Shown: one piece after another, positions 30,481 through 63,850 of the stretch | Position numbering within the stretch: position 1 is the first letter of the stretch | Layout of the letters: every line of letters starts with the position of its first letter | Assembly: GCA_964019135.1 (NCBI GenBank) | Contig: OZ025265.1 | Coordinates: forward strand, 21,861,143-21,925,142 | DNA length: 64,000 bases | Direction: 5' to 3' | Source of the DNA: Arenicola marina | Taxonomy: Eukaryota; Annelida; Polychaeta; Arenicolidae | Program-made: the position numbers and the translations under genes | Notes under the pieces: generated by a model | Databases searched by the model: none | What the model was told of the DNA's origin: nothing | What the model saw: only the letters and a program-made list of their open reading frames with translations

Positions 30481-31439
30481 CAAGCTTAGATTGAAAGTCG
30501 TCATTTAAATGCTGAAATCATACTTTGATGTAAGTGTGAGTAAACGGCGGTGGCAAACGGCAGAACGTAAATAAAATCATGCAAGTAACATTACCAAAAT
30601 ATTACTATTTCAGTAGTCAGTAATATGAAATTGGCAATCGATCGTTAGAGATGTAGGAAACAAACTGATAATTGTTGTTCTGTTGGCCAGCATTACGGTC
30701 TGTCTGAACTCCTCGCGTTGCGATTGTTAACAATCCTTTGTTTTAATTGCAATTACATTGATATCTAATCGCTTTAAACAAAATATCAGCAGAAACAGTG
30801 TTCTAGGAATAAGTGTTAACATATTAGCTGGCGCTCACGTGACTGTTTGTGTCCAACAATTAGCTAATATAAATGTACTTCTTTGCGGACAGTTACTTTG
30901 ATATTTTGCAATGCCCCATGCCACATTCATACGGTCACGGTGCTTGTCTTGTTTAGCACAATGCCTGAACAAATGTCTGAAAAAGTTTCTGAGATATAAC
31001 CAACCCTCTTGATAACAGTGCCCCAACAAATGCATATAATGCAAATGCGCATTTGGCTCAATGCTTGCTAACCAATTAGATCTGCCTTCCCTTCCTAAAT
31101 AACGACGTATAATTCTTCACCTAATCATACAATATTAACTGATTACGCATAACTTGTTGATGGTCATTATCACGGCGTTTAGCGTTTAGCAGATTAAGGA
31201 TAAAAGAGATCGATTATATAAACATGAATTATATCTGAACATGAAGTGTTTGAATCAGACACTTTGTTAAATCACAGTCAAACTGCGTCAGTCGAGTAGG
31301 CATGTTTTTTGTCAATAATTAGAATTACAACAACAGAATAACTCTCGCACCTGATTTTTATTATCAGATGAGAAAGACATACCATCAACGCACATATTGC
31401 ACAAAGGTTTGCAGGTTCAGATATGAATTGCACGCGCTG

Positions 31440-31703
31440 TGTTTTGCAGCTTGTAGTTGAGCCAAGGCGACAGGCGTATTCACAGAACACGTGACGCAGC
31501 TCATCCGGTGTGACCAGCTCCAGACGCAGCGAGTAGCGGAAGGAGCGCTGGGCGCGATCATAGCGCCTCTGAAGGTCGTCAATACGGTTGTTGAGCAGAG
31601 TGATCTGGTGACAGGCCGATTGGTGCTGGTTGTACTTCTGGTTGTCAAACGCCAACATGTCCTCCAGTGTCTCAAATCCCATCATCGCCGATTCTGAGGT
31701 CAT
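31440..31703 (-). pseudogene. Alpha-subfamily member, broken
   Basis: It starts MTSESAMMGFETLEDM at 31703 and reads through the shared core, but four core residues (VVAD) are missing (RRYDRAQRSFRYSL). A further deletion of about 48 bp removes the segment that encodes GDELDTLQISVFIAL in intact alpha members, and the frame then runs into unrelated sequence down to 31278. A minus-strand TATA box (31846-31851) and the upstream GAAGCCA motif at about 31975 remain. It is the left partner of the beta copy at 32912. Confidence 0.75.
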
Positions 31704-32911
31704 TATACAGTGGTGCTTCCGTTTATCTTGCTAATGACTGTTTAGCGAAGCAACAGGTTTCAACGCATAGACGATATGCTATTAAGTCGCTTTGCTCTGT
31801 CAAAGAAGCAATACTTTTGTGTTCATTAATACCCCGCCAACCCACTTTATAGGACACAAACGCACATTGTGCGGTCGGCTTTTGACCGCTGACTAACCAA
31901 TCAGAATCCTCGTGATACAACACCCATTATCAAATAGCTACCCCTTTAGGGATTAATTTGTTAATCCTGTCGCATGGCTTCCACGCCACAAAACAGTCAC
32001 GTGACTTCACCGATAACGCGAAAAAGAAAGTAAGGATGCGCTCATGTTGTTTGCGCCATGATCAAATTGACAAATAGCGAAAATATACGACAGACTGAAA
32101 AATGAAAATTCCAGCAAATTAAGGCAGGACGCAATGGGACATTATAAGGATGGAACGTCGGAAAGGCTATCAAGTTATATTTTCACATTACCATATGCCA
32201 GAAGTCATACATCTATGTAAGATGTGCAGATTTTCTTCCTCCCCACGATATCGTCAGCAACTCATAAAGCAACGCCCACCCAAGCCGTCATACAGCATGT
32301 TCAAGCATGATTGCCATTTTCATTCATTGTTGCGTCTAATATCATATCCATTTCATTATCTTTTCTTTTAGCACGATCACGCCCATCACGCGCTGTCACA
32401 CTAGTGCTTTGCCTCTTTTCTCAAAGTGACAACCATCACTTAAACTAATCTTTTGGGCGTAGCATGAAGTGACAGGCAAGAAACCAGCCCGATTGCGTCC
32501 TTAAAGTAAACGGGGTCGTCGGCCAGAAGTGAAGCCATGTGTTGCTTGGATCAATTAACATCGCGCGTCTCTTCTCATCGACCTAAACAGCGAAGAAGCC
32601 AATCGTCATAATATCACTTTGTGAGAAACATTCCTTTGATTCCGATTTGTTAATATGTTTGGAATCTCTCCCTATTGGTTGTGCATGTTTAGTACGCCGA
32701 AGGACAAAGCGGGATAGATGACAAGCCAAGGGCGATAAAAGGTGGGGGAATTTCCTATCAATTCAATATTGTTGGAGACCAGTCGTCTTAAAGCGAGTTT
32801 TTGGATTCAAATATTGCCGGACACCAACCGTCTTACAGTGATTCTTACGCTACCAATTCTATTTAAGACCAGCCAAAGCTGCATTGGAGCGGTCACTTCT
32901 GTATAATAAAT
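31704..32911. promoter_or_regulatory. Alpha/beta divergent promoter interval, copy 1
   Basis: This 1208-bp interval separates the alpha start (31703, minus) from the beta start (32912, plus). It contains the alpha TATA at 31846-31851, CCAAT at 31898 and the beta-side block around 32470-32620 (ACGGGGTCGTCGGCCAG, GTGAAGCCATGTG, AGAAGCCAATCG), plus leader repeats from 32766. The beta TATA is degenerate (GCGATAAAAGG at about 32732). Both flanking genes are broken. Confidence 0.65.
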
Positions 32912-33287
32912 ATGTCGTCATCGACGATACTGACAGAGCGGCCGATCATCCAAGAACTCGTCGACTCGCACCAGATAATTCATTCCAAGTTCCGTCTTTC
33001 CTGTCGCAAGATCCAGGTGCTCAACAATCGCATAGATGGCCTACAGAGACGCTACGATCGTGCCGTTGTGGCCGACCAGCGCTCCTTCCGCTACTCGCTG
33101 CGTCTGGAGTTGGCTACGCTGGAAGGTGTACGCCACATGTTCTTCATGTATGCCAATCGGTGCGGGAACCACATGGACGCCCTTGAAGATATTCATTGTA
33201 GAATTGATGGCTGTGCTGGAGGTGGGCGAGGCTGTGAGCGAGATCGATGGCGAGGAAGTGTGTAATGATGCCACAATCAACACGTAG
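32912..33287 (+). pseudogene. Beta-subfamily member, frameshifted by a 5-bp deletion
   Basis: The first 92 or so codons are intact and match intact beta genes (start MSSSTILTER, QELVDSHQ, QRRYDRAVVADQRSFRYSL). At about 33190 five bases are missing (GAAGATATTCAT for GAAGATCGAGTATTCAT). The normal ending EVGEAVSEIDGEEV... is therefore lost; the shifted frame stops at about 33265 and the original stop is at 33285-33287. The 3' flank with AATAAA at about 33462 is kept. Confidence 0.85.
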
Positions 33288-34359
33288 CAGCGTCATTGAG
33301 AGAGAAATTCCCTTTCGACACTTCGCTTTGAACAAGTTTGTGCGTGTTGATCATGTCTATATTCCACTGTTCCTCTCCCGATATCGCTAAATGTCACTTC
33401 AATGCAGTGCCATTTTGTAAAAGCATTTGTCCCATTTCATTTTGCTCTCTACGTTTCATAATAAAACAATATTCGATTCATATTTGTTCTTCTCATATGC
33501 ATATCCGTTTCCGCCGTGGCACATGCAAAGGGATCTTGCATTTACTTAAAATATTATTACGGAACCAATCGCTTAACTGCCTCAGTAGCATAACTTGTTT
33601 TTTTATACTTCTCGGGCGTTAACTGACGCAATATGCACAGGAGTATAAGCGATCAATATATGTGTTCTTTATTGCGTCATTCCAGCTCAAATGATACTTA
33701 CTCGTTATTATTATTTATAATATATGACAATATAACCAGAGCGCGAGTTGGAGGGGTATTATGTAATTGCATTGGCTCTACTTGGGACCTCGGGCACATA
33801 TTAATTGCCCCAGAGAAGTACACATCAATTAAGCCGTTGCGTCTTTGCGACCCTGTTAAACATTTCAATGTATTCTGAGTTCAGTACACTATTATGTAAA
33901 TGATCTTATTGTGTCAATCTGACGAATAAACTGAGATTACAAGCAGGTTCTAATTGTAGTGATAGTTTCACATCTTCAAGACGTTTGCAATGCGACAGTT
34001 TGGCTTTATTTCCGTGTAACCGTGTAATGCGTTATCTCAAATGAATAAGACCGTTGCCATCTTTTTCGCACCTCTTTAAGTCTAATTAATATCTCATGGC
34101 AACCGGTTTTCTCTCGTTCAGCAGCTATGCCATGAAATAAGTTAACAGTCCATTCGATAGGCACGGCACACTGCTTCACTTATCCTGCGCTAGCAATCTC
34201 ACTTCACGCTTGCTCAGATAGACAGTACCTTATAATCAGTGTGAACCAATAGCTGAGTTTGACATGAATACAAAAGTAATCGGATAAATCGCATTGCAAA
34301 TAAATCACAGGCGGAAAGTTAATTACATTGAAAGCCCTAAGCGATAATTTCATTTTATT
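33288..34359. other. Beta 3' flank and spacer
   Basis: The 3' flank of the beta gene resembles that of the beta copy at 51991-52371 (CCCATTTCAT, AATAAAA). The part at 34150-34290 recurs inverted at about 39230-39330. No gene is seen. Confidence 0.5.
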
Positions 34360-34796: not shown

Positions 34797-34920
34797 GACT
34801 TGGTGACGTTTCATGCGCGATTCGTCTTAGAATCTGGTAGAATTCATGACCGAGACGGAGTCGGTTGCCGACATGGAGCAAAACTTGCGGGATTCGGGAG
34901 GAGCTTCCTCTGTCTGCTAG
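34797..34920 (+). pseudogene. Gamma-subfamily remnant: 5' two-thirds deleted
   Basis: The gamma leader (GAGAACCCGTTATTCA, ending about 34795) is joined directly to the 3' end of a gamma gene. What is left encodes approximately ...EFMTETESVADMEQ followed by the DSGGASSVC ending and TAG at 34918-34920. The start codon and the whole core are gone. The ending is of the same type as in the gamma copies at 38231 and 59832. Confidence 0.75.
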
Positions 34921-35947: not shown

Positions 35948-36274
35948 TTACTGTTCCGCGCCAGGTTCTCTCGTCTGTTGATGAGCCAATATCGTGAATA
36001 CGGGGGTCTGTAAAGTATCTAGCTGGCCTTCCTTACGATCGACGTATTCACAGAACATGTTACGTAACTGTTGCATCGTTGTAAGCTGAAGGCGCAGCGA
36101 GTAGCGTTGATCAGCCACAACAGCGCGATCGTAGCGCCTCTGGAGGTCGTCTATGCGGTTGTTGAGTAGAGCGATTTGGCGACATGCCATTTGATACTTG
36201 TGGTACTGCTGAACGTAAAACAACAAAATGTTGTGAGGTGTCGTTAAACGGTCCGCTACGCAGGCTGATGCCAT
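35948..36274 (-). CDS. Delta-subfamily short helical protein, intact (108 aa)
   Basis: From the ATG at 36274 it encodes MASACVADRLTTPHNI, then a helical segment (YHKYQMACRQIALLNNRIDD), the family core in a shortened form (DRAVVADQRYSLRLQL, three residues fewer than in the other copy) and a C-terminal part with CEYVDRKEGQLDTLQ, ending PGAEQ. Two upstream in-frame ATGs at 36280 and 36301 would add residues. 36274 is chosen because the second delta copy (63533) starts at the matching position. TATAAA on the minus strand lies at 36418-36423, about 145 bp upstream. There is no signal peptide, no membrane segment and no known domain. Function unknown. Confidence 0.65.
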   Translation of the reverse strand: MASACVADRLTTPHNILLFYVQQYHKYQMACRQIALLNNRIDDLQRRYDRAVVADQRYSLRLQLTTMQQLRNMFCEYVDRKEGQLDTLQTPVFTILAHQQTREPGAEQ

Positions 36275-36580
36275 AGCCATGTGGTACCAGAGATAACGCA
36301 TAAAACAAGGATTAACACTAGCGTTGAATGCAATGCAGCAGTCTCCTCGTATGTGAGGGCGAATGCATACACTGACAATGGATGCAGAAACTGTATCGCA
36401 AAGCCGTCTTAGTCGCCTTTATACGACACCATTTCAGTATCAGCCGTAGCGCTAGCCAATGAAATTCAAGCACAGTAACCCATAGGCCGTAAATGCTAAA
36501 TATATCTGCTTTCCTGGCTTCCGACCTTGTTATTTTACCACGAGTCTCCATGGCATGGCTTCCGTATTACACCGGCGACT
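36275..36580 (-). promoter_or_regulatory. Delta promoter region
   Basis: TATAAAGGCG on the minus strand lies at 36418-36423. The paired motifs CCTGGCTTCC (about 36511) and CATGGCTTCC (about 36551) lie further upstream, 40 bp apart. The same layout precedes the delta copy at 63198-63533. Confidence 0.65.
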
Positions 36581-36736: not shown

Positions 36737-36893
36737 TATGACTTTCCCGTGCCGCCTTCCGCAGCTTCTTGTTGAGCCAACGTGATGAACACCGAGGTCT
36801 GTAGAGTGTCTAACTCGTCTCCTCTCCGACAAACGTATTCACAGAACACGTGACGCAGCTCTCAAATCCCATCATCGTCGATTCTGACGTCAT
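36737..36893 (-). pseudogene. Alpha-subfamily remnant with the core deleted
   Basis: The start (MTSESTMMGFE, from 36893) is joined directly to the 3' third (GAGCTGCGTCACGTG...). About 180 bp are lost, including the whole shared core. The join also shifts the frame, giving a stop about 27 codons in. The alpha promoter (minus-strand TATAAA at 37036-37041) is kept and then runs at about 37175 into the gamma-type module. Confidence 0.8.
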
Positions 36894-37169: not shown

Positions 37170-37425
37170 ATGGCTTCCGAATCTACTAAAGCAGATTTAG
37201 GGCCGGATCACGCCAGCCCAAAGCAACGAGCTGAGGTCAGATGGAGGGAGGAAGCCAGGTCCGCTGATACATACATCAATTTTGCCGTGGTCACACTGGA
37301 TGAACTGCGTCACGTGTTCTGGGAATACGTCTGTGGGAGAGAAGACGAGTTAGACACTCTACAGATCTCGGTGTTCATCGCCTTGGCTCCACTACAAGCT
37401 ACAGAAGACGGCTCCGGAAACTGTG
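37170..37425 (+). pseudogene. Alpha 3' fragment fused to a gamma upstream module
   Basis: A 90-codon open frame starting MASESTKADLG is chimeric. Its first 31 codons come from the gamma upstream module (the part with GGAGGAAGCCAGGTCC). From about 37287 it encodes the alpha C-terminal part (VTLDELRHVFWEYVCGRED, then LDTLQISVFIAL). The join ATCAATTTTGCCGTGGTCAC also occurs, inverted, in the alpha fragment at 61030-61183. It is probably a remnant; it would have no family core if translated. Confidence 0.7.
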
Positions 37426-38230: not shown

Positions 38231-38614
38231 CTAGCAGGCCGAGGAAGCTCCTCCCGAATCCCACAGGTGTTGTTCCATATCGCAAAACGACTCCGTCTCG
38301 TCTGGAGCGGTCATGAATTCTACGAAGACGAATCGCTCTTGAAAAGTCACCAAGTCGTTCCCGCGTTGATTGGCGTACTCGAAGAACATGTCGCGCACTC
38401 CTTCTAGAGTTGCAAGCCTGAGGCGTAGCGAATAGCGAAAGGATCGCTGATTGGTCACGACGGCGCGATCGTAGCGCCTCTGGAGGTCATATATTCCGTT
38501 GTCGAGAAGGCGAACTTGGTGACAAGCGCGGAGGAACTTATAATGGAGCTTCTGATAATAATGGACGAGGTCTGCTGCCAGCTGGCTGTCTTCCAATACC
38601 ACGGATGACGGCAT
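38231..38614 (-). CDS. Gamma-subfamily protein, intact, long C-terminal variant (127 aa)
   Basis: The start ATG at 38614 matches the start in other gamma copies (MPSSVVLEDSQLAADL). Then come YQKLHYKFLRACHQVRLLDN, the core RRYDRAVVTNQRSFRYSL, and LATLEGVRDMFFEYANQRGN. The C-terminus is DMEQHLWDSGGASSAC, unlike the IQEELP ending of the copies at 48467 and 54626. The frame is open further upstream to 38758, but that part is the leader in other copies. The TATA element is degenerate (minus-strand TAAATAAGG near 38770). CATGGCTTCC (38905) and CCTGGCTTCC (about 38967) lie upstream. All helical in appearance; function unknown. Confidence 0.7.
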   Translation of the reverse strand: MPSSVVLEDSQLAADLVHYYQKLHYKFLRACHQVRLLDNGIYDLQRRYDRAVVTNQRSFRYSLRLRLATLEGVRDMFFEYANQRGNDLVTFQERFVFVEFMTAPDETESFCDMEQHLWDSGGASSAC

Positions 38615-41099: not shown

Positions 41100-41109
41100 A
41101 TTTACTTGA

Positions 41110-43755: not shown

Positions 43756-44094
43756 CTAGGACTTTCCGGCGCAGTCTTCTGCAGCTTGTAGTTGAGCCAA
43801 GGCAATGAACACCGAGATCTGTAGAGTGTCTAACTCGTCTCCTCTCCGACAAACGTATTCACAGAACACGTGACGCAGCTCACCTAATGTGACCAGCTCC
43901 AGACGCAGCGAGTAGCGGAAAGAGCGCTGGTCGGCCACCACGGCGCGATCGTAGCGCCTCTGGAGGTCGTCAATGCGGTTGTTGAGTAGAGTGATCTGGT
44001 GACAGGCCGCTTGGTACTTGTTGTACTTCTGGTTGTAAAAAAACAACATGGCGTCCGGTGTCTGAAATCCCATCATCGCCGATTCTGACGTCAT
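43756..44094 (-). CDS. Alpha-subfamily protein, intact (112 aa)
   Basis: It starts MTSESAMMGFQTPDAML at 44094, within TGACGTCA. Then come a helical part (YNQKYNKYQAACHQITLLNN), the core RRYDRAVVADQRSFRYSL, and LRHVFCEYVCRRGDELDTLQ, ending AEDCAGKS. TATAAA on the minus strand lies at 44237-44242, about 143 bp upstream. CATGGCTTCC (about 44369) and CCTGGCTTCA (about 44398) lie beyond it. AATAAA follows about 65-70 bp after the stop. It is paired divergently with the beta gene at 45282. Intronless and cytoplasmic or nuclear by default (no targeting signal). Function unknown. Confidence 0.72.
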   Translation of the reverse strand: MTSESAMMGFQTPDAMLFFYNQKYNKYQAACHQITLLNNRIDDLQRRYDRAVVADQRSFRYSLRLELVTLGELRHVFCEYVCRRGDELDTLQISVFIALAQLQAAEDCAGKS

Positions 44095-45281: not shown

Positions 45282-45662
45282 ATGGCGTCTTCGATGAAAA
45301 TGACAGAGCGGCTGATCATTCAAGAACTCGTCGACTCTCACCAGATGATCCATTCCAAGTTCCGTCTTTCCTGTCGCCAGATACAGATGCTCAGTATCCG
45401 TATAGATGACCTACAGAGACGCTTCCATCGCGCCGTGGCGGCCGACCAGCGCTCCTTCCGATACTCACTGCGTCTGGAGTTGGCTACGCTGGAAGGTGTA
45501 CGCGACATGTTCTTCGTGTATGCCAATCGGTGCGGGAACCACATGGCCGCCCTCGAAGATCGAGTATTCATCGTAGAATTGATGGCTGTGCTTGAGGTGG
45601 GAGAGGCTGTGAGCGAGATCGATGGCGAGGAAGTGTATAATGATGCCACAATCAACACGTAG
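45282..45662 (+). CDS. Beta-subfamily protein, intact (126 aa)
   Basis: It starts MASSMKMTERLIIQELVDS. The core LQRRFHRAVAADQRSFRYSL is followed by LATLEGVRDMFFVYANRCGN and an acidic C-terminal part (EVGEAVSEIDGEEV, then NDATINT). It is closest to the copy at 40719-41099: both have MKMTER, LSIRIDD and RRFHRA. It therefore represents a beta variant distinct from the copies at 51991 and 58143. AATAAA lies at 45774-45779, about 112 bp after the stop. It is driven from the divergent interval shared with the alpha gene at 44094. Confidence 0.72.
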   Translation: MASSMKMTERLIIQELVDSHQMIHSKFRLSCRQIQMLSIRIDDLQRRFHRAVAADQRSFRYSLRLELATLEGVRDMFFVYANRCGNHMAALEDRVFIVELMAVLEVGEAVSEIDGEEVYNDATINT

Positions 45663-46500: not shown

Positions 46501-46519
46501 GGTTGGGGAATCTACTATC

Positions 46520-46717: not shown

Positions 46718-47014
46718 ATGACGTCATCGACGATAATGGCAGAGCGGTAGATCACCCAAGAACTCGTCGACTCGCATCAGATGATTCATTCCAAGTTCCG
46801 TCTCTCTCGCTGTCAGATCCAGATGCTCAACAACCGCATAGACGACCTCCAGAGGCGCTACGATCGAGCCGTGGTGGCCGACCAGCGCTCCTTCCGCTAC
46901 TCGCTGCGTCTCGAGTTGGCTACGGTGGAAGGTGTACGCGACATGTTCTTCATGTATGCCAATCGGTGCGGGAACCACATGGCCGTCATTGAGAGAGAAA
47001 TTCTCATTCGATAG
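46718..47014 (+). pseudogene. Beta-subfamily member with early stop and truncated end
   Basis: Codon 11 is TAG (46748-46750) where intact copies have CAG (MAERQITQELV). The rest of the frame is open through the core RRYDRAVVADQRSFRYSL to CGNHMA. There about 95 bp are deleted and the 3' UTR (GTCATTGAGAGAGAAATTC) is joined on, giving a false end at 47014. It also lacks its TATA box and alpha partner. Its 3' flank is nearly identical to that of the intact copy at 58143. Confidence 0.88.
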
Positions 47015-48466: not shown

Positions 48467-48835
48467 ATGCCGTCATCCGTGATACTAGAAGACAGCCAGT
48501 TGGCGGGAGAGCTCGTAAACTTTTACCAGAAGCTACATTCCAAGTTCCTTCGAGCCTGTCATCAAGTTCGCCTTCTCGACAACGGAATATATGACCTCCA
48601 GATGCGCTACGATCGCGCCGTGGTAACCAATCAGCGATCCTTCCGCTATTCACTGCGCCTCAAGCTTGCTACGCTAGAAGGAGTGCGCGACATGTTCTTC
48701 GAGTACGCCAATCAACGCGGCAACGACTTGGTAGCATTTCAAGAGCGATTTGTCTTCGTAGAATTCCTGACTGCTCCGGACGAGATGGAATCGGTTGCCG
48801 ACATTGAACAAGAGATTCAAGAAGAACTTCCCTAA
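48467..48835 (+). CDS. Gamma-subfamily protein, intact, short C-terminal variant (122 aa)
   Basis: It starts MPSSVILEDSQLAGELV; the frame is open 11 codons upstream, but this ATG is conserved in all gamma copies. Then come YQKLHSKFLRACHQVRLLDN, a core with Met for Arg (MRYDRAVVTNQRSFRYSL), and LATLEGVRDMFFEYANQRGN. The acidic C-terminus ends in DIEQEIQEELP. AATAAA lies at 49032-49037, about 197 bp after the stop. It differs from the copy at 54626 by only a few residues (G14/A, S/L and I/M near the end). No known domain, signal or membrane segment. Confidence 0.73.
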   Translation: MPSSVILEDSQLAGELVNFYQKLHSKFLRACHQVRLLDNGIYDLQMRYDRAVVTNQRSFRYSLRLKLATLEGVRDMFFEYANQRGNDLVAFQERFVFVEFLTAPDEMESVADIEQEIQEELP

Positions 48836-50453
48836 CGTTGGAAGACTGAGCGTATCCACATGTCATGGGACATGCTTCATCCAATGCACTTCGTTGTCCC
48901 ATGAACAATTAGGACGCTGCTTAATGTCGACAACTGTCACTTATTAAATAACATACATCCGCAAGTGCTATGTAACCATTGTTGGCTTCTTTCAGATTAA
49001 CTTTAGAATTCATGTAATATTCCGATTTGTTAATAAAATTAAAATGCAACAATTTGTATATGTTTCATTTCGTTCTATAAGATGCACTTCATAACCATTT
49101 ATGTCGCCACCAATTTATGTTAACTAACTTATTCATAAAATCGATATTTTCATTGTTCCTTGTCTAATTTCTTGCTATTAATCAGTATCTTATCCTTTGA
49201 GTTGGTGGACCAAATAGCTTATTAAGATACTACATAACAGTAACAACGCTACGTTCTTCATATAAGATTGTATTAAGACTCGTAATTTGAAAGAAACCTC
49301 CTACATTAGTAGGAGTGTGATTAAACGACGAGAGTAATTGGCACAACGTCGATAATATATGTGCAAATAACACAACGGAAATATATGTATTAAAGCATCG
49401 TCAAATACCAACTGTCGCCATCGAACATTAGCGATGTCGTAAAAAACTATTATGGTCTATTGCGGTCTCGAAACAATCCCGGTCTTTCGTAAATCGACCC
49501 GCCGTGATTATCTGTCACTTTAATTGCAATTACGCTGATCTCTAAACCTTTAAATTTGTTTTCAATCAGCAGAAATGTTTGGTTCTGAATATATGTTAAA
49601 TATCATGCATACACAAAAGGAACTGAATTAATGATATTTATAGTAACAATTAACCATAATTGTCTATGTTCATCGGCGAGTGAATCAATAAATAAATCTA
49701 AAGATCGTAATCCTGATCTCGCACAATAACAGACATTTCGGGAATAGCTGGCGCTCACATGACGACTTGTGTCACACAATTAGTCAATATGAATATGCTT
49801 CGTTGAGGAAAGTTTGTTTTGATATTATGCAATGCTGCTGGACCGCATAATCACATTTTCAATGGCGCTTAGTCACATAACACATTCATACCATCAGGTT
49901 GCTTGTCTTGTTTGCCAAAAAGTCCCAACCAATATCAGAAAATAGCCATTCATATATCTTGTAACTGCTTTATGTTTTCAGTTGATGCGTGTCAATTTGA
50001 CAGCTAAATGTGTCTTTGGAATGGAAGCTTGGTATTGCTTTAGCACAGCAGTAAAGCTTTTCTAATATCTAACCAACACTCTTGATAACAAAGCCACAAC
50101 CAATGCATATTACTGGGCCTAATTGGCTTACCGCTTGCTAACCAATTGGATCTGCCTTCCCTTGGTAAATAACGACACTTATTTCATCACATAATTCAAT
50201 TTTATTATATCATTACCCATTAGCGTTTGGAAAATTACAGAATATATATCGATTATAAAAAAAGTCCAAGTATTTGTACACGAATTTGATGAAAATGACA
50301 CATTGTCAAATAAAACGAAAACTGGACTGGGCCTTTCGAATTAGTATGTTTGGTTAAAACAACAGAATAAGTTTGGCCCTTGATTTTTATTATCCGATGA
50401 GAATGACATGATCTCAACGCCCGCACTGCACAACACACACAAGGGCTGCAGGT
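48836..50453. other. Gamma and alpha 3' flanks
   Basis: Convergent 3' flanks of the gamma gene (plus) and the alpha gene at 50454 (minus). The stretch is duplicated at 54995-56602. GTGATTAAACGACG (49317) recurs at 30538, 43074 and 60690 in related form. No gene is seen. Confidence 0.55.
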
Positions 50454-50798
50454 TCAGCTTATCTTTCCGGCGCCATCTTCTGCAGCTTGTAGTTGAGCCA
50501 AGGCGATAAACACAGATATCTGTAGATTGTCTAACTCGTCTCCTCTTCGACAGACGTATTCATAGAACACGTGACGCAGCTCATCCAGTGTGACCAGTTC
50601 CATACGCAGCGAGTATCGGAAGGAGCGCTGGTCGGCCACCACGGCGCGATCGTAGCGCCTCTGGAGGTCGTCAATACGGTTGTTGAGTAGAGTGATCTGG
50701 TAACAGGCCGCTTGGTACTTGTCGTACTTCTGATTGTAAAACGCCAACATGGCGTCCGGTGTCTCAAATCCCATCATCGCCGATTCTGACGTCATCAT
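50454..50798 (-). CDS. Alpha-subfamily protein, intact (113-114 aa)
   Basis: Two adjacent ATGs (50798 and 50795) begin the frame; the second matches the single start of the copy at 44094. The protein reads MTSESAMMGFETPDAMLAF, then YNQKYDKYQAACYQITLLNN, the core RRYDRAVVADQRSFRYSL, and LRHVFYEYVCRRGDELDNLQ, ending DGAGKIS. TATAAA (minus) lies at 50938-50943. It forms a divergent pair with the beta gene at 51991 and is the duplicate of the gene at 56603-56947. Function unknown. Confidence 0.73.
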   Translation of the reverse strand: MMTSESAMMGFETPDAMLAFYNQKYDKYQAACYQITLLNNRIDDLQRRYDRAVVADQRSFRYSLRMELVTLDELRHVFYEYVCRRGDELDNLQISVFIALAQLQAAEDGAGKIS

Positions 50799-51990
50799 AC
50801 AGTGATGCTACCGTTTTTGCTGAAAATGATTGCAACAGGTTCCAACGCCTGGAAGATATGATTTCAAGTCGCTTTGCTGTATCACAGAACCAATCCTTGT
50901 GTGGTCATCAATACGCAGCCAACCACCTTTATATGGCACACAATCACATGATACGGTCGGCTTGTGACCGATGACTAGCCAATCAGATTCCTCGTGACAC
51001 AACACCCATTATCAAAGGCCCACACCTTCGGGATTCATTACGCATTTGTAAAACCTGGCGCATGGCTTCCGTGCTACAGAGCAAACCTGGCGTCACCGAT
51101 CACACGGGAAAACAATTGATGTGCGATCATGTTTTTTTTGCTCCGCAACGATACAATTTACAAATCGAGATTGAGAAATGAAACCGTAAAGCAAAAATTA
51201 AACATGTCTGAAAGATTTATTTTCGAATTACCAGATGCCACAGGTTCTTTATAGGATGTACATATTGTTGTTATACCCATGACATTGTCAGACACCAAAA
51301 TAACATCGCCTACCCAAAACCGTCAAACAGCATGCCCATGCTTGATTGTCATCTCCATGTCACTTCAGTTTTGCGTCTAATATCAGATCAAATTCGTAAT
51401 TTTTAATTTCAAACAACGACAACCCCGCCCGCAACCAACACCCACTCATAACATCATACACATGCCCATCACATACAGTAATCTTTTTCCCATATCATCA
51501 AGTGACAGGCAAGAAGCCAGCCGGATTGCGTCTTTCAAGTAAACGGGGTCGTCGGCCAGAAGTGAAGCCAGGTGTTGGTTGGATCAATTAACATCGCGCG
51601 TCTCTTCTCATCGACTTAAACAGCCAAGAAGCCAATTGTCATAATATCGTTTTGCGAGAAACCCTCCTGTGCGTCCTATTGGTTAATATATTTCGAGCTT
51701 CTCCCCATTGGTTGTGAGTGTCTAGTACGCCTAAAGCTAAAACGGAACAGATGACAAGCTGAGGGATATAAATGGTTGGGGAATCTCCTATCGAATTCAT
51801 ATTGTTGGAGATTTGCCGTTTTAAAGCGATTCTTTAGCTACAAATATTTCTAAAGACAAGCCGTCGTAAAACGATTCTTCTGGCACAAATATTGTTGGAG
51901 ACCAACCGTCTTATAGCGATTCTTACGGTACAAAATTTTGTTGGAGATCAGCCAAAGCTGCATAGGACCGGTTACTTCTATTTAGTAAAT
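50799..51990. promoter_or_regulatory. Alpha/beta divergent promoter interval, copy 3
   Basis: 1192 bp between intact genes. The alpha side has minus-strand TATAAA at 50938-50943, CCAAT at 50979 and CATGGCTTCC at about 51061. The beta side has AGAAGCCAGCCGG (about 51511), GTGAAGCCAGGTG (about 51562), AGAAGCCAATTG (about 51627) and TATAAA at 51767-51772. Nearly identical to copy 4. Confidence 0.72.
51796..51962 (+). repeat. Beta leader repeats, clearest copy
   Basis: Four units of about 43 bp lie between the TATA box and the start codon. Each has (T/A)TTGTTGGAGA or TTTCTAAAGACAAG, then CCGT, then CGATTCTT and ACAAA. The last unit is cut short at CAGCCAAAGCTGCATAG. Confidence 0.75.
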
Positions 51991-52371
51991 ATGACGTCAT
52001 CGACGATAATGGCAGAGCGGCAGATCACCCAAGAACTCGTCGACTCGCATCAGATGATTCATTCCAAGTTCCGTCTCTCCTGCTGCCAGATCCAGATGCT
52101 CAACAACCGCATAGATGACCTCCAGAGGCGCTACGATCGAGCCGCGGTGGCCGACCAGCGCTCCTTCCGCTACTCGCTGCGTCTGGAGTTGGCTACGCTG
52201 GATGGTGTACGCGACATGTTCTTCATGTATGCCAATCGGTGCGAGAACCACATGGCCGCCCTTGAGAATCGAGTATTCATCGTAGAATTGATGGCTGTGC
52301 TGGAGGTGGGAGAGGCTGTGAGCGAGATCGATGACGAGGAAGTGTGTAATGATGCGACAATCAGCACGTAG
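51991..52371 (+). CDS. Beta-subfamily protein, intact (126 aa)
   Basis: It starts MTSSTIMAERQITQELVDSH, with the ATG inside TGACGTCA. IHSKFRLSCCQIQMLNNRID leads into the core RRYDRAAVADQRSFRYSL, then LATLDGVRDMFFMYANRCEN, VFIVELMAVLEVGEAVSEID and the end DATIST. The frame is open back to 51892 across the leader repeats, which is not taken as coding. AATAAA lies at 52551-52556. Its 3' flank resembles those of the copies at 32912 and 45282, unlike its near-twin at 58143. Confidence 0.75.
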   Translation: MTSSTIMAERQITQELVDSHQMIHSKFRLSCCQIQMLNNRIDDLQRRYDRAAVADQRSFRYSLRLELATLDGVRDMFFMYANRCENHMAALENRVFIVELMAVLEVGEAVSEIDDEEVCNDATIST

Positions 52372-53805
52372 CAGCGTCATTGAGAGAAAAATTCTCATTC
52401 GGCACTTCTCCTTGAACAACTCGCGGCGCTGTGACCAGGACTGTATTCCAATGTTTCACTGGGGATATCGCTAAATGTCACTAATAACCTTCAAATCAGT
52501 GCCATGTCGTGAATACATTTGTCCCATTTCATCTTGCTTTTAAATTTCATAATAAAATAGTATTCACTTCATATAGTTTTCTCTATGCATATTCGTACTT
52601 GGCGTGTCACTTACTTCTTGCCTTTATTAACAATGTTAATACGGAACAAATCACTCAAGTAGATATCCAACTAAACATATCCAACGAAAACCCAAGCTGG
52701 GTCAGTGGCGTTAGATATATTTAATAGAAGAAAATTGCGGCATTTAAACTTGAAATTTTGAACATTCTTCTAAACTTGAAATTTTGAACATTCTTCTAAA
52801 CTTGAAATTTTGAACATTCTTCTAAACTTGAAATTTTGAACATTCTTCTAAACTATGGGTATGTACCTTTGGAACAAATTGGCTTAGTTTAGTATTAATG
52901 ATTTCAACAAGACTATATCGTACACATTTGGTAACACATTCATGCCGGGCTCTAACGGTGCGAACATAATTTGGTTAGCGAGTATAATGATAACGCAATT
53001 TGTCATTGCGGACAACGGACAGTCTCTTAAAATATTCAGGTGTTATTATTTTGTGATTAATTGTGATTAATTCGTGATTAACAATAACAGGCTGTCGATT
53101 TGCAATACGCCTCATTCATTAATATGTTTCCCTGCCACAGAGATGTACTCATCAATTAAGCCGTAGAGTCTTGCAGCTCCGTTAAGCATTTTTATGCTTT
53201 CTAAATTCAGTAAAAAGAGTCTATGTGTTAATTTTGCCCTCGCAGTTCGTTGTTTTGGAACACCACAGAGTTTTCGCGCGGCAAATAGTCAAATAGCCTT
53301 TGCTGACCAGTGCTGCCTTTGCTACCTTTGAAGCATGTTATTGCTGTCTTGGTTCAGTAAAATTGACTCTAATCATCATGACTCTGATTTTGTCATTCCG
53401 GCGAATAAACTTTCAGCATTACATGCAGGTCCTATTGGTGATTGCAGCGTCAAATCTTGAGCCCGCTGGTATTGCAATTACACGCGACAAGTTGACCCGA
53501 GTTGCCGTCTAACAAATTACCGTTATCGTTATAGATAATTCTATTATGTAATTACAATCTTTCGGCCACTGTTGTTTTTTCTCGCTTGGCATCTGTACTA
53601 GAACCAACAATAACTATTATTCGATAAGCGACGGTAGGTTTCAATGTAGTTTCAATACTTCTGTGATTTTGCTTCACCTTTAGTCGATTAGAAAGTAATC
53701 ATCATAAGTGTGAACAAAATTAGTCCTGTAGACATAAATACCACAAGAATCAATATACATGACTGCAAGTAGATGTAAGCCTTTCTACCTATCGGTAATG
53801 TAATA
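52372..53805. other. Beta 3' flank and unique spacer
   Basis: The flank after 52380 differs from that of the duplicate at 58524. It carries a 26-bp tandem repeat (52746-52850). The frame at 53300-53512 has no domain signature. No gene is seen. Confidence 0.5.
52746..52850. repeat. 26-bp tandem repeat, 4 copies
   Basis: The unit AAACTTGAAATTTTGAACAT plus TCTTCT is repeated four times without visible change, so it is young. Confidence 0.95.
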
Positions 53806-53989
53806 CTATGTCGTTTGTTGTTAGTGTTTAAAATATCCCGCAAGTAAAGTATTGATGTACACAGGATTCATGGCCATTTTAAAAGCCACCGAGTATTAGA
53901 CTTTTTAAACAATATAAGCTTAACGCTTAGCCCTAGATTTCGAAGAAAAATCAAATGAATCCGTACAAAGTGTCATATGTAAAATGAGA

Positions 53990-54020
53990 AGCCTAGTTAG
54001 CTCAGTCGGTAGGGCAGACT
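53990..54020 (+). pseudogene. tRNA-Lys 5'-half relic, second copy
   Basis: Duplicate of 47829-47862, with three bases (ATC) lost before CAGACTTTT; the D arm is still recognisable as TAGCTCAGTCGGTAG. It shows the relic was present before the 6.15-kb duplication. Confidence 0.65.
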
Positions 54021-54109
54021 TTTGCGCCACATGAATAAACTAAGCAGACAATTGGGACACTGGAAGCCCCAAACGACATTGCCGTTTTATAGCATCGCTG
54101 TTAACACTT

Positions 54110-54625
54110 TGACGTGACAACCCGTTGAACCAACATTACAAACCCCGAAGCATACAACCTGCGTGTAACCTAAACACACTAAACACATCTATTGCTGTCC
54201 TTATAGGGCATCTTGCAGCAAATCCACCCGACACCACATTTGAGGTAGAAGCCAGATGAGGAAAGGAAGCCAGGTCCTTTGAGACTTTGTTGTTGACTCA
54301 ATCGCGCTCTCAACCAACCGTCTTATGGAAGCCATGGCCGTCATCAAACACAAACCATTTTGGTCGGGATGATGCATGGAAGTCCACATCAAGGTGACCA
54401 TAAACATAAGTCTGCTATTGGCTGATTGTCTCATCTTATGCGCGCGATACTGTTCAGCCCCTATATATCGAAAACACTTCCCTGCTGCATCATATTACGC
54501 TCAGGTCAATTGTGGGTGATAGTCATTGGCTGGTGTTTTACTGAACCAAGATCCTTTACTGAAGGATCAAATACGATCATACAATATTTCCATTGTATTA
54601 TACTTGTCGTTATTGTTACGTGACA
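54110..54625 (+). promoter_or_regulatory. Gamma promoter module, duplicate
   Basis: GGAAGCCAGGTCCTTTGAG lies at about 54267, TATGGAAGCCATGGCCGTC at about 54324 and TATATAT at 54462-54468. Nearly identical to 47950-48466. Confidence 0.7.
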
Positions 54626-54994
54626 ATGCCGTCATCCGTGATACTAGAAGACAGCCAGTTGGCGGCAGAGCTCGTTAACTTTTACCAGAAGCTACATTCC
54701 AAGTTCCTTCGAGCCTGTCATCAAGTTCGCCTTCTCGACAACGGAATATATGACCTCCAGATGCGCTACGATCGCGCCGTGGTAACCAATCAGCGATCCT
54801 TCCGCTATTCACTGCGCCTGAAGCTTGCTACGCTAGAAGGAGTGCGCGACATGTTCTTCGAGTACGCCAATCAACGCGGCAACGACTTGGTAGCATTTCA
54901 AGAGCGATTTGTCTTCGTAGAATTCCTGACTGCTCCGGACGAGATGGAATTGGTTGCCGACATGGAACAAGAGATTCAAGAAGAACTTCCCTAA
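54626..54994 (+). CDS. Gamma-subfamily protein, intact, short C-terminal variant (122 aa)
   Basis: Duplicate of the gene at 48467-48835. It starts MPSSVILEDSQLAAELV, keeps MRYDRAVVTNQRSFRYSL and LATLEGVRDMFFEYANQRGN, and ends DMEQEIQEELP. The Met in the core (MRYDRA for RRYDRA) is shared only with its twin, so the change predates the duplication. AATAAA follows at about 55193. Function unknown. Confidence 0.73.
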   Translation: MPSSVILEDSQLAAELVNFYQKLHSKFLRACHQVRLLDNGIYDLQMRYDRAVVTNQRSFRYSLRLKLATLEGVRDMFFEYANQRGNDLVAFQERFVFVEFLTAPDEMELVADMEQEIQEELP

Positions 54995-56602
54995 CGTTGG
55001 AAGACTGAGCGTATCCACATGTCATGGGACATGCTTCATCCAATACACTTCGTTGTCCCATGAACAATTAGGACGCTGCTTAATGTCGACAACTGTCACT
55101 TATTAAATAACATATATTCGCAAGTGCTATGTAACCATTGTTGGCTTCTTTCAGATTAACTTTAGAATTCATGTAATATTCCGATTTGTTAATAAAATTA
55201 AAATGCAACATTTTTGTATATGTTTCATTTCGTTCTTTTAGATGCACTTCATAACCATTTATGTCGCCACCAATTTATGTCAACTAACTTATTCATAAAA
55301 TCGATATTTTAATTGTTCCTTGTCTAATTTCTTGCTATTAATCAGAATCTTATCCTTTGAGTTGGTGGACCAAATAGCTTATTAAGATACTACATCACAG
55401 TAACAACGCTACGTTCTTCATAGAAGATTGTATTAACACTCGTAATTTGAAAGAAACCTCCTATATTAGTAGGAGTGTGATTAAACGACGAGAGTAATTG
55501 GCACAACGTCGATAATATATGTGCAAATAACACAACGGAAATATATGTACTAAAGCATCGTCGAATACCAACTGTCGCCATCGAACATTAGCGATGTCGT
55601 AAAAAACTATTATGGTCTATTGCGGTCTCGAAACAATCCCGGTCTTTCGTAAATCGACCCGCCGTGATTATCTGTCACTCTAATTGCAATTACGCTGATC
55701 TCTAAACCTTTAAATTTGTTTTCAATCAGCAGAAATGTTTGGTTCTGAATATATGTTAAATATCATGCATACACAAAAGGAACTGAATTAATGATATTTA
55801 CAGTAACAATTAACCATAATTGTCTATGTTCATCGGCGAGTGAATCAATAAATAAATCTAAAGATCGTAATCCTGATCTCGCACAATAACAGACATTTCG
55901 GGAATAGCTGGCGCTCACATGACTACTTGTGTCACACAATTAGTCATTATGGATATGCTTCGTTGAGGAAAGTTTGTTTGATATTATGCAATGATGCTGG
56001 ACCACATAATCACATTTTCAATGGCGCTTAGTCACATAACACATTCATACCATCAGGTTGCTTGTCTTTTTTGCAAAAAAGTCCCAACCAATGTCAGAAA
56101 ATAGCCATTCATATATCTTGTAACTGCTTTATGTTTTCAATTGATGCGTGTCAATTTGACAGCTAAATGCGTCTTTGGAATGGAAGCTTGACATTGCTTT
56201 AGCTCAGCAGCAAAGCTTTTCTAATATGTAACCGACACTCTTCATAACAAAGCCACAACCAATGCATATTACTGGGCTCGCTTGCTAACCAATTGGATCT
56301 GCCTTCCCTTGGTAAATAACGACGCTTATTTCATCACATAATTCAACTTTATTATATCATTACCCATTAGCGTTTGGAAAATTACAGAATATATAGATTG
56401 ATTATAAAAAAAAGTATTTTGACACGAATTTGATGAAAATGACACATTGTCAAATAAAACGAAAACTGGGCCTTTCGAATTAGTATGTTTGGTCAAAACA
56501 ACAAAAAACAACAGAATAAGTTTGGCCCTTGATTTTTATCATCCGATGAGAATGACATGATCTCAACGCACGCACTGCAAAACACACACAAGGACTGCAG
56601 GT
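54995..56602. other. Gamma and alpha 3' flanks, duplicate
   Basis: Counterpart of 48836-50453, with scattered substitutions. From 55888 to 56460 it is even closer to 45918-46490. No gene is seen. Confidence 0.55.
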
Positions 56603-60193: not shown

Positions 60194-61029
60194 GTTGCAG
60201 GTTGAGCCGCGTGTGAACAGATCATCCTCCATCCAATACACTTTGCTCTCCCATGAGCAATTAGGACGCTGAGTAATGTCGGCACCCGCCAGTTATTAAG
60301 TCTTTTATATCCGCAAGTGCTTTCTGACCTTTGTTGTTTCTTTTCCGGCAAACTTTGGCAACCGTGAATTAGTCCGCTTTGTTAATAAAATTAAAATCCA
60401 ACTTAATCAATATCGTTCTTTTCTGTTTCTTCTTTCTAATATTTGAATTGTATGATCATTTAGGTCGCCGACAACGCATTCCCTTATCGCGTTTTGTTGA
60501 AGAACATGGTCTAGCAACCGATATTAATTCCCTTGAATATTAATTATTGTTTGCCAGGTTTTCATCTATATTTTATTTTTTATATTGGCGGCGAGACCAC
60601 TTGAACAGCATTTTGATATATAATAATGTTACAGGCGAGAATAGATTGTGAGTCTTTTTTAAGGGCTAAAATTATACATTAGCATCAGTGTGATTAAACG
60701 ACGAGACCAACTAGCAAAGGGTTGATAAGCTATGTGGAAACGTCATAACTGAAATGCAATTATTGCACCTGTTTAGGGATAATTATTCCGGCCTATTGCG
60801 GCCTGCCACACCTCACGGTTTACTGTTCAAAACGCCATCAATACGTTTTTGCTCGAACGATCGCGTCTTGATTGTTATTAATCGTTCGCACTAGTTGCAA
60901 TTATACTGATATCTAATTACTTCGCCCAATTATTTTTTATGAAGCTTTATTTCAAAAAGAACATGCAACAATACGAGAGTACAAATGAAGCCAGATCAAC
61001 GCACTCGTTGCACACAGTTGCAGGTTCAG
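60194..61029. other. Gamma 3' flank, inverted duplicate of 37.4-38.2 kb
   Basis: AATAAA lies at about 60382. The sequence reads inverted against 37430-38200. No gene is seen. Confidence 0.55.
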
Positions 61030-61183
61030 CTGTAACTTTCCGGCGCCGTCTTCTGTGGCTGGTAGTTCAGCCAAGGCGATGAACACCGAGATCTGTAGAG
61101 TGTCAAACTCGTCTGCTCTCCCACAAACGTATTCACAGAACACACTGACGCAGCTCGTCCTGCGTGACGACGGCAAAATTGAT
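61030..61183 (-). pseudogene. Alpha 3' fragment
   Basis: It encodes the alpha C-terminal third (FCEYVCGRADEFDTLQ, then ISVFIALAEL) with no core and no start. One extra base at about 61145 breaks the frame (CGTCAGTGTGTTCTG). It begins at the same join (minus strand ATCAATTTTGCCGTCGTCAC) as the fragment at 37287. Confidence 0.75.
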
Positions 61184-61734
61184 ATATTCGAATGCATTTT
61201 ATGCAACCGTTTCACTTGAAAGCTTTTCACAATAACCTAAACAACTATCTTTTTTTAAGCTTATCGACAGACACCCATTCCTGTGCTCATCGTCTAACAC
61301 GTAACATTGCAACAACTTTCCGCGGCCAAACCTTGTGCTGTTGGCCTTTGAAGTCGACTGGCTCGTCGCGAGAATGTGAATCCATGGGTTGGGCTCATAG
61401 ATTAACGCTGCACGCCTTGCCTCATTGCTTAAAGCGGTAATGAAGCCAGGGAGCCGACTATGCATCAGATAGAAGCGCTATCCCGTTTCTAATTGGTGAA
61501 GGCATATTGAGCCTCTTTCCCATTTGTCATTTTCCAAGCAAGGCTTCACGCAGAGAATGTGAGTTAGATAATCTATTCGCTTATAAAGGTTAAACAAGTT
61601 GTTGACCAGTTATATTCAGCTAGGAGCTGTACTGCCGTTAATGGTTACAACGTACTCCTGGTCTATAAGGTAGGAACGGGGTAACAACAGGAATAAAATA
61701 CAACTGTTTGGTTTATTTCCTGATATTGACGCCA

Positions 61735-62030
61735 ATGACGGCTATGGCGTGGCGACAATTCGTGGACAACCTCATGGACTCTTACCAGACAGCGTCCGTC
61801 CAGACAGCAGTTCCATCTTTGCTGTCGCCAGATCCAGATGCTCAACAATCGCATAATCCACCTCCAGAGGCGCTACGATCGCGCCGTGGTGGCCGACCAG
61901 CCCTCCTTCCGTTACTCGCTGCACCTGGAGCTTATGGCTACGCTGAAAGGAATACGCGGCATGTTCTTTACGTAGGTACGCCCATTGGTGCGGGAATCAC
62001 ATGGACGCCCTTGAGGATCGAGTATTCCTT
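61735..62030 (+). pseudogene. Beta-like member, degraded
   Basis: It starts MTAMAWRQFVDNLMDSYQTA, then shifts out of frame before the core. The core DNA is still clear (CCAGAGGCGCTACGATCGCG, then CGACCAGCCCTCCTTCCG), as is MFFT followed by a stop at about 61974. Homology ends near 62030 (GATCGAGTATTCC). A TATAAA at 61582-61587 lies 150 bp upstream. The N-terminus differs from other beta copies, so this may be an old, separate lineage. The open frame at 61708-62055 reads mostly out of the family frame. Confidence 0.75.
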
Positions 62031-63197
62031 TACCCTTTGTCAGGAAGTGAAATAAGCGAGCGCCCTGTAGTCTTTAATTTTAAAGTAAACGTGCTCGTCG
62101 GCCGGAAGGAAAGCAATGTGACGTATATTTGCCTTTTTCAAAAATCGACGTTATCTTTGGCATACCATTTCATAATAATGTTTTGATGTACTCTCTGAAT
62201 TATGTTATATTATGTGCAAAATGGTACATTTACCGTTCAAAGCCAAATGGAAGAAAAGTATATCTCTGGGAATTTACGGTTAAAAAATCCTATAGAATAT
62301 ATTATAGAAAAACTAAAACAGAATTATTGTGAAAATGCAATATAGCATTTGTATCAGGCATTGTGATATATTAAGTGTTTGTTATATATTTGACAGATTT
62401 TTATATTTCCTTAATCAAATGTTACTCATCTTAGTGAAGCTATTTCCCGGAGCACCAAAAAGTGTTGTGATTGTATGAACGGATATTCTTGTATTCATCA
62501 CCTATGAAGATGTGTGAAGCCTATGTACTCTGGATTGATGCAAATAAAAAATAAAAATAAAAAAAAGCAATGTGATGGGCGGACCAATTTACAATCATGC
62601 GATTCTCTATCCGATTGAAATTGGGAAGATGCATATCGCCATAATAGCAATTACGACTTGTGCAAAAAACGAAATGCATCAATTTCCTGGGCTTCCGACT
62701 TGCTATTTTGCCACAAACCTTCCACGCATGTCTTTCATATTACTTCAGCGACTGGCTTAAACGATAACAGACATCCTGGAAGCATTCGTTAAGTACAGAA
62801 ATATCATACTAGCTTTATTGAAGTCGGCATTTAACCATTGGACGTTGAATAATAGTCATGTATCCAATGTTAACAAACATCATGCTTTTTAATTGAAATT
62901 AACCCAACATTGCCAATAACCCATGAATATAAACGACAAACAGTTTATTTCGGGAAGTGCGATTACAGTCACAGAGACACCCCAGGCAAATTTTAATGTA
63001 AGTCATGTCAGGCAATTTTAATTTTATTATATTATCCGAAACATATGGCACCAAATTATAGTCCACATCCACGAACTTCCACAAAAAGAATTGTCTTTCA
63101 GAAGAGGTTTTACAGTCTGTGGCCTTAAACTCCACACATCGTAATCAGCCATGTTTCCTTGAAAATAGACAATACCTCCCGACATCACAGGCGACTG
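62031..63197. other. Spacer and delta 3' flank
   Basis: A piece of the beta promoter block appears at about 62083-62110 (GTAAACGTGCTCGTCGGCCGG). AATAAA occurs at about 62542. From 62820 the sequence resembles the delta 3' flank at 35450-35760. A 78-codon frame (62899-63135, minus) has many stops in its counterpart near 35.8 kb and is not called. Confidence 0.5.
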
Positions 63198-63533
63198 TCA
63201 CTGTTCCGCGCCAGGTTCTGTCGTCTGTTGATGAGCCAGGATCATGAATACCGAGTTCTGTAGAGTATCTAGCTGGCCTTCTTTGCGACAGACGTATTCA
63301 CAGAACATGTTACACAACTGTTGCATCGTTGTAAGCTGAAGGCGCAGTGAATAGCGGAAGGAGCGTTGATCGGCCGCCACGGCGCGATCCTATCGCCTCT
63401 GGAGGTCCTCTATGCGGTTGTTGAGTAAAGGGATTTGACGACAGGCCACTTGGTACTTGTTGTACTGCTGAACGTAAAACCACAAAATGTCGTGAGGTGT
63501 CGTTAAACGGTCCGCCACGAAGGCTGATGCCAT
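63198..63533 (-). pseudogene. Delta-subfamily member with one nonsense codon
   Basis: The frame runs from ATG at 63533 (MASAFVADRLTTPHDILW) over 112 codons to a stop at 63198 without frameshift. Codon 48 is TAG (63390-63392) where the family has TAC for Tyr in RRYDRA. Past it, DRAVAADQRSFRYSLRLQL and CEYVCRKEGQLDTLQ are intact, ending PGAEQ. The rest of the gene and its TATA box (minus, 63680-63685) are sound, so the break is recent, or the base may be a sequencing error. Confidence 0.8.
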
Positions 63534-63850
63534 AGCCGAGTGGTGTAACCAGAGATAATGCGTAAAACAAAGGTTAACACTGACGCGGAATGCAATGCAG
63601 CTGTCTCCTCGTATGTAAGGTCCAATGTATTTACGGTTAAGGGATGCAGAAACGCTATCGCAAAGCCATCTTACTCGCCTTTATACGACACCATTTCAGT
63701 ATCAGCCGTAGCGCTAGCCAATGAAATTCAAGCATTCAAGCCCATAGGCCGTATCGGCTAAATATATCAGCTTTCCTGGCTTTCGACCTTGTTATTTTAC
63801 CACGAGTCTTCATAGCATGGCTTCCGTATTACACCAGAGACTGGCTTCGC
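63534..63850 (-). promoter_or_regulatory. Delta promoter region, second copy
   Basis: TATAAAGGCG (minus) lies at 63680-63685. CCTGGCTTTC (about 63776) and CATGGCTTCC (about 63817) are 40 bp apart as in the first copy. CTGGCTTCGCCGAT follows at about 63840. Confidence 0.65.

Follow-up and report, generated by a model that had tools for sequence, protein, structure and literature searches.

A family of short intronless genes in Arenicola marina with a putatively polyadenylated cluster and sister arrays bearing histone-type 3' end signals

The stretch analysed here (the window) comprises 64,000 nucleotides of the Arenicola marina assembly GCA_964019135.1 (867 Mb, 762 contigs), namely positions 21861143-21925142 of contig OZ025265.1 (C20), and holds a cluster of short genes that had been described from its sequence alone as an unrecognised multigene family. 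When 13 window proteins were searched against the window (tblastn, E<=1e-2), 21 separate loci were recovered between 31386 and 63557, with best E-values per locus of 4.5e-8 to 2.7e-86, self-matches included. Full-length open frames are present at 11 of these (35948, 38231, 40719, 43756, 45282, 48467, 50454, 51991, 54626, 56603 and 58143), and the other 10 are fragmentary or broken (31386, 32912, 34834, 36739, 37251, 46718, 59832, 61033, 61769 and 63174); at 31386 and 32912 the frames are open, yet their C-terminal parts are out of frame. Every locus reads as a single exon, and alignment resolves four subfamilies, A, A', B and C, around a common core. The number of loci, their coordinates, the division into open and broken copies, the subfamilies and the lack of introns all agree with the sequence-only reading. 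Duplication of a unit of about 6.15 kb, A(-) B(+) C(+), accounts for much of the layout, and the window truncates the cluster, as matches extend to C20:22,098,886. The features of the cluster are listed below, with protein lengths in amino acids (aa).

31278-31715, minus strand: subfamily A locus; 141-aa frame open at 31278-31703, 4 core residues missing, C-terminal part out of frame
32912-33284, plus strand: subfamily B locus; frame open to 33265, C-terminal part frame-shifted
34834-34917, plus strand: subfamily C fragment, C-terminus only
35948-36301, minus strand: subfamily A' gene; 117-aa open frame, core without RSF
36739-36861, minus strand: subfamily A fragment
37251-37421, plus strand: subfamily A fragment, inverted
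38231-38614, minus strand: subfamily C gene, 127 aa
40719-41099, minus strand: subfamily B gene, 126 aa
43756-44094, minus strand: subfamily A gene, 112 aa; predicted structure a helical hairpin
45282-45662, plus strand: subfamily B gene, 126 aa
46718-47008, plus strand: subfamily B locus, broken by one internal TAG
48467-48835, plus strand: subfamily C gene, 122 aa
50454-50798, minus strand: subfamily A gene, 114 aa; used as query against the genome
51991-52371, plus strand: subfamily B gene, 126 aa
54626-54994, plus strand: subfamily C gene, 122 aa
56603-56947, minus strand: subfamily A gene, 114 aa
58143-58523, plus strand: subfamily B gene, 126 aa
59832-60184, plus strand: subfamily C locus, truncated, 97 aa
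61033-61146, minus strand: subfamily A fragment
61769-62039, plus strand: subfamily B-like pseudogene, broken frame
63174-63557, minus strand: subfamily A' locus with one internal TAG
49693-55851, no strand: duplication unit of about 6.15 kb, A(-) B(+) C(+); sister unit from 55852 on
30232-63848, no strand: 38 copies of GAAGCCAK, 29 of them no more than 450 bp upstream of 16 loci, all oriented with the gene

A genome search with one window protein (50454) returned 719 first-look candidates, of which the best 150 were scored; all of these matched, and they lie on five chromosomes. The cluster sampled by the window (C20:21.89-22.10 Mb) contributes 62 of the scored matches, a second C20 cluster (C20b, 25.38-25.40 Mb) contributes 5, and one gene each was found on C9 and C14. 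Further members form an array on C5 and another on C7 (3.89-4.49 Mb, unit 1,328 bp) of roughly 440 copies, a number partly inferred from array length, the first hairpin places listed being 23 on C5 and then one about every 1,328 bp on C7. Searching with the C9 protein recovered C9, C20b, C14, C5 and C7 among the 150 matches listed, which these places filled before the window cluster was reached. In a tree of 21 representatives C5 and C7 group together (84/78), joined by C14 (100/99) and then by C9 (93/87); the C20 clusters fall on the other side of this midpoint-rooted tree, in which some rows sit on long branches. Based on these comparisons, the window loci appear to be one branch of a large animal gene family. 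The unrecognised, duplicating family of the sequence-only reading was upheld, at an extent wider than the window and reaching five chromosomes. A weak second frame was seen at the C14 locus (L042), and at one C7 locus (L032) an early-ending change (EVCRPI) is common to 3 of 8 frames, with the hairpin described below in all 8 units.

More important than the window cluster as a result of this analysis are the 3' ends of the C5 and C7 genes, a branch that appears to bear the cis-signals of replication-dependent histone genes. The C7 genes and most C5 genes have AGCTCT-TYTC-AGAGCT about 20 nt past the stop, with a few other loops in C5 (the variants across both arrays are TCTC, TTTC, TTTT and CCTG); ACACA or a close variant comes after the stem, with a purine element beyond it, e.g. 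AAAAGA or AGAAAGAA. The fetched loci hold 66 C5/C7 frames (51 of the roughly 440 from C7 and 15 from C5), and 64 were scored, two having too little flank. A pattern for the hairpin matched 3' of the stop in 61 of the 64 (49/49 in C7 and 12/15 in C5), lying 20-24 nt past the stop in 56 of these 61 genes, and matched none of 42 frames from C20, C9 and C14, including all 34 frames of the C20 cluster. As the pattern fixes most of the stem, an unrestricted test was run to remove this bias: any hairpin of 6 bp and 4 nt near the stop was found in 14 of 15 C5 frames, always with the stem AGCTCT/AGAGCT (the fifteenth has one mismatch), and in 7 of 42 frames outside C5 and C7. The poly(A) signal shows the reverse distribution: AATAAA is found up to 250 nt from the stop in only 3/64 C5/C7 frames versus 29/42 frames from C20, C9 and C14. 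By a loose pattern, the purine element lies 11-13 nt past the stem in 49 of 61 genes (44/49 in C7, 5/12 in C5), and an element of the same kind lies at about the same distance in the histone genes of this genome. Some C5 genes, e.g. L040:5118-5182 (-), have a second, imperfect hairpin past the first, adjoining the purine element.

The hairpin was also searched with covariance models. The Rfam histone hairpin model RF00032 scored 28.0 bits against C7 (E 2.1e-6 in a 161-base search) and 18.1 bits against a C5 gene, and the 3' ends of five histone genes of this genome scored 36.5, 35.5, 34.2, 32.9 and, for one cut short, 26.2 bits; a gathering-level Rfam scan of ten loci listed nothing. A model built solely from those five histone 3' ends (R1) was searched against the window and 20 loci (263 kb) and returned 67 matches with E<=1, of which 59 reach E<0.01 (best E 3.7e-6). 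All 67 fall in C5/C7 loci; this search gave no match for the window or for any C20, C9 or C14 locus. Four of the 59 lie on the opposite C5 strand (L038:68-116, L038:7565-7613, L039:9314-9362 and L040:6271-6319 (+)); on inspection the last three proved to have no family frame ahead of them, and these ends would be relics of lost genes or inverted copies. In the whole genome the family pattern RGCTCTTYTCAGAGCYAC occurs 467 times (reversed control 0), compared with 188 occurrences of the exact histone hairpin GGTCTTTTTCAAGACCACC (control 0). At four of its six pairs the family stem departs on both sides from the histone stem of this genome and still pairs, and RNAfold gave a hairpin of -6.9 kcal/mol for each of the three strings submitted to it. 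All 12 stem bases agree when C7 is compared with six C5 copies (the search pattern fixes 10 of them); the flanks, compared without gaps, are identical only at chance level, 11-14 of 55 positions upstream and 12-17 of 50 downstream. Kept stems between flanks at chance argue against a passive relic.

The histone genes themselves lie in arrays at C5:30.585-30.730, C5:43.53-43.58, C5:44.6375-44.6914 and C9:15.553-15.565 Mb, found by scoring the best 150 of 203 candidates, and no family locus is among the 149 histone matches listed. The first C5 family hairpin, at 44,696,539, lies about 5.2 kb past the last listed H3-like match at 44,691,375. The histone stem of this genome is GGTCTT/AAGACC (read in five 3' ends, L051-L055, with 188 exact matches); the Rfam consensus is GGCUCU/AGAGCC, and the family stem AGCUCU is nearer to it than are the histones of this genome. 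One SLBP gene was matched, as two exons on C17. Candidate sites for pairing with the U7 small nuclear RNA (snRNA) are CCAAAAAGAAAACC and the C5/C7 elements.

The C20 cluster carries a different set of signals. TATA boxes and AATAAA signals had been claimed for most intact window genes. Of the 34 frames in the C20 cluster as fetched (window and L046-L050), 24 have AATAAA no more than 250 nt from the stop, and a loose pattern finds a TATA-like box in 27 of 32 promoters; CCAAT elements accompany the TATA-like elements upstream of C20 genes. The motif GAAGCCA occurs 1.94 times per promoter in forward orientation and never in reverse (32 promoters, related copies included). Its longer form, GAAGCCAK, is present 38 times in the window, compared with 3.5 expected by shuffling, and the 29 copies in the 450 bp before 16 window loci include none that is reversed; none lies in the 450 bp upstream of the broken B locus at 46718. 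Promoters on C7, C9 and C14 did not show GAAGCCA, and in those of C20b and C5 it is rare or reversed. It is a candidate motif for shared regulation of subfamilies A, B and C, and on the basis of these signals the window genes appear to be the polyadenylated branch of the family. The promoter of the C9 gene (L043, upstream of 4982) has two TGACGTCA sites and repeats of TGACAACG.

Family proteins are about 105-150 aa long and are new relative to the libraries searched (protein-family, PDB-sequence, prokaryote and virus). Searches of Pfam, NCBIfam, PHROGs and PDB sequences with window proteins yielded no match that exceeded cut-off or noise, seven relatives from other loci had no Pfam match above cut-off, and the viral and prokaryote collections supplied no confirmed relative, so the claim that no recognised domain is present held. 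Five window proteins and the seven relatives also lacked any transposase, integrase or capsid domain above cut-off in Pfam, for which a missing profile match is weak evidence; a clear match to a transposon protein had been named as grounds for rejecting the family. AlphaFold, run on a 13-sequence alignment, gave the A protein at 43756 two long helices (residues 13-53 and 57-110; mean predicted local distance difference test, pLDDT, 87.6), a predicted two-helix hairpin. The last 35 residues form acidic tails of net charge -5 to -14 in the five proteins measured, one each from C7, C9, C14, C20b and C5 and none from the window. The histone profile PF00125 matched neither the five window proteins (E<=1) nor the seven relatives (E<=10), and the genes are not classed as histone genes because of this and the helical hairpin model. 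The core motif is, in our estimation, loosely similar to the IER family (PF05760), whose immediate-early genes are short and intronless like those of this family. The PF05760 profile found one gene on C19 (92.9 bits) and no family locus at E<=10, and hmmscan of the same 12 proteins gave no IER match, and this candidate was rejected.

Ratios of non-synonymous to synonymous substitution rates (dN/dS; Nei-Gojobori, own script) support purifying selection between most window copies. The ratio is below 1 in all 26 window pairs and 0.13-0.34 in 18 of them; between subfamilies it is 0.47 (B-C) and 0.39 (A-B), in the pairs 51991/58143 and 48467/54626 it is 0.71 (14 changes) and 0.43 (5 changes), and in four pairs involving the broken locus 32912 it is 0.61-0.70. 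Across the genome it is 0.13-0.51 in 16 of 18 chosen pairs within and between arrays and subfamilies, two pairs being saturated (no ratio) and one having a dS of 2.8. Differences are enriched at third codon positions in the six pairs counted, and neither the 26 window pairs nor the 16 of 18 genome-wide pairs below 1 give any sign of positive selection. A ratio near 1, which would have spoken against the family, was thus not found for window or wider pairs; the variants within the C7 array are the exception, as they appear near neutral.

Other features lie within the cluster or elsewhere in the window. Downstream of the B gene at 51991 a 26-bp repeat, TAAACTTGAAATTTTGAACATTCTTC, is present in 4.2 perfect copies (52745-52854) and resembles heat-shock elements. 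A 66-bp tandem repeat (MGTNPGTNIWGTFYQQLLSKHV) at 4573-6981, with 36.6 copies at 97% match, is open in frame over 585 codons on the minus strand and is probably a minisatellite. A 50/101-bp tandem array (16 x 101 bp) occupies 2636-4235, and a 317-bp ATA microsatellite 11382-11698. Within 15154-22621 a minus-strand frame at about 15179-15478 presumably resembles a Rab-like or DNAJC27-like GTPase. A DNAJC22-like gene has a TM2 domain at 18700-19098 and a J-domain-like frame at 22391-22621.

Taking the family, its arrays, the 3' signals, the conserved stem and the neighbouring histone array, all of which are read directly from the DNA, it is quite probable that the window holds a polyadenylated branch and C5 and C7 a sister branch with histone-type ends and replication-coupled expression. 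Replication-dependent histone mRNAs are described, in the parts of PMC5011920 used here, as non-polyadenylated, with a stem-loop and purine-rich element and a link to S phase, and the processing pathway as set out in part of PMC2781718 is the basis for what follows. SLBP and the U7 small nuclear ribonucleoprotein (snRNP) would process the C5/C7 mRNAs, cleaving after the hairpin, and therefore the protein would be made in bulk in S phase alongside histones, with cleavage-stage embryos or the germline as the likeliest setting. Hundreds of copies would provide such bulk; early histone arrays give a bulk supply of histones in embryos of some animals. The window branch would have escaped replication coupling, as replacement histone genes do, because it carries poly(A) signals and a promoter motif of its own, GAAGCCA, in place of the histone-type signals. 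Given the acidic tails and the histone-like regulation, the best single guess for the protein is a histone-companion or chaperone-like chromatin factor, a guess that we would expect to prove wrong more often than right. Embryonic, germline or immune expression had been suggested from the window alone; the C5/C7 3' ends point to replication-coupled expression, which would fit proliferation in embryo or germline better than immunity.

Several observations weigh against replication coupling of the C5/C7 branch. The C7 copies are homogenised, so that their hairpins represent few independent events, only 51 of the roughly 440 C7 frames were read, and the variants within the array appear near neutral, with 9 synonymous changes out of a possible 210 and 25 non-synonymous ones out of 735. 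Three of the 15 C5 genes are without the pattern hairpin, the frame running through it in two and the stem being mismatched in one, and the purine element lies at 29-31 nt in six C5 genes, some of which have the second, imperfect hairpin, and is unscored in six others. C7 and C5 hairpin scores fall under the RF00032 gathering score of 34 bits, and the comparison of C7 and C5 flanks was ungapped and made on copies picked by a pattern fixing 10 of the 12 stem bases. The U7 snRNA was not found, RF00066 having matched nowhere, controls included; a U7-like pattern gave chance numbers (33 matches, 44 in the reversed control). No link to histones is shown at the protein level, and structure searches with the modelled hairpin returned assorted coiled-coil arms and named no relative, matches that are to be expected because the modelled protein is a helical hairpin.

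Alternatively, the C5/C7 hairpins could be functionless relics, C5 copies having gained a histone 3' end by duplication beside the histone array and C7 being derived from them. The C5 array does lie about 5 kb from a histone array, the three of four opposite-strand C5 hairpins that were inspected have no family frame in front, and the homogenised C7 copies fit as well. Yet C7 and C5 have kept the stem, mostly the ACA and a purine element beyond within 3' flanks whose identity is at chance (ungapped), and 61 of 64 C5/C7 genes are without AATAAA, so that a relic would leave them no obvious end signal; this origin is decidedly unlikely. Perhaps the family is instead a lineage-specific immune, germline or embryonic one whose copies expand for dosage or in an arms race, with replication coupling functionally irrelevant. 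Its fast turnover, seen in the 10 broken loci among the 21 of the window, and the poly(A) signals and own promoter motif of the window branch are in keeping with this, but dN/dS is below 1 in 26 of 26 window pairs and 16 of 18 wider pairs (two saturated) and the histone-type 3' ends are left unexplained, which makes it a rather doubtful account.

Two further possibilities carry little weight. The 1,328-bp tandem repeat of hundreds of units on C7 could suggest open frames inside satellite or transposon DNA, but third-position bias in six pairs, dN/dS of 0.13-0.51 in 16 of 18, promoters with TATA-like boxes, 3' ends like those of genes and the lack of any transposon domain above cut-off in the 12 proteins scanned render this very improbable. 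Divergent histones or histone-fold proteins would match the gene anatomy and 3' ends of histone-gene type; however, PF00125 is unmatched in the 12 proteins scanned (E<=1 for the five from the window, E<=10 for the seven relatives), no family locus is among the 149 listed histone matches, and the predicted hairpin has two helices where the histone fold has three, leaving this idea with hardly any probability.

The C5/C7 genes, with their probable replication-coupled expression, resemble replication-dependent histone genes in being intronless, with TATA-like promoters and clustered arrays, and in having a 6-bp/4-nt hairpin, mostly followed by ACA, a purine element and mostly no AATAAA. They differ from them in encoding a non-histone protein, in four of six stem pairs relative to the histones of this genome, in the number of hairpin pattern matches (467 of the family type, 188 of the exact histone type) and in having a branch, that of the window, with AATAAA and without the hairpin. 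A polyadenylated branch beside a stem-loop branch in one family is also the situation of replacement histone variants, but the window genes are intronless and still duplicating. Replacement variant genes usually bear introns. Two-exon and multi-intron cases are given in the part of PMC5011920 consulted. A SpyCLIP study (PMC6451120) reports, in the portion used here, an SLBP-bound non-histone RNA, PPP1R5B as printed, which like the family is a non-histone transcript with histone stem-loop-like structures. Unlike the family, it is there a single crosslinking and immunoprecipitation (CLIP) transcript left for further study, and that portion mentions no gene family, array or downstream element.

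Replication-dependent histone mRNAs are called uniquely non-polyadenylated in metazoans in the part of PMC12803260 drawn on. Provided that the signals work as they look, the family described here, which is non-histone and whose hairpin pattern occurs 467 times in one genome, would break the rule that this 3' end belongs to histones only, and would name a protein that cells need in step with DNA replication. A bolder proposal, which is tentative and which we hold to be somewhat improbable, is that it represents a second replication-coupled class in animals: a non-histone family of several hundred tandem copies, more than the histones, that uses the SLBP and U7 3' machinery and encodes a helical, acid-tailed histone-companion for rapid S phases, with the window branch serving outside S phase. 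The presence of stem-loop and poly(A) branches within one family would offer a natural system, and the orphan cluster of the window gains a testable context.

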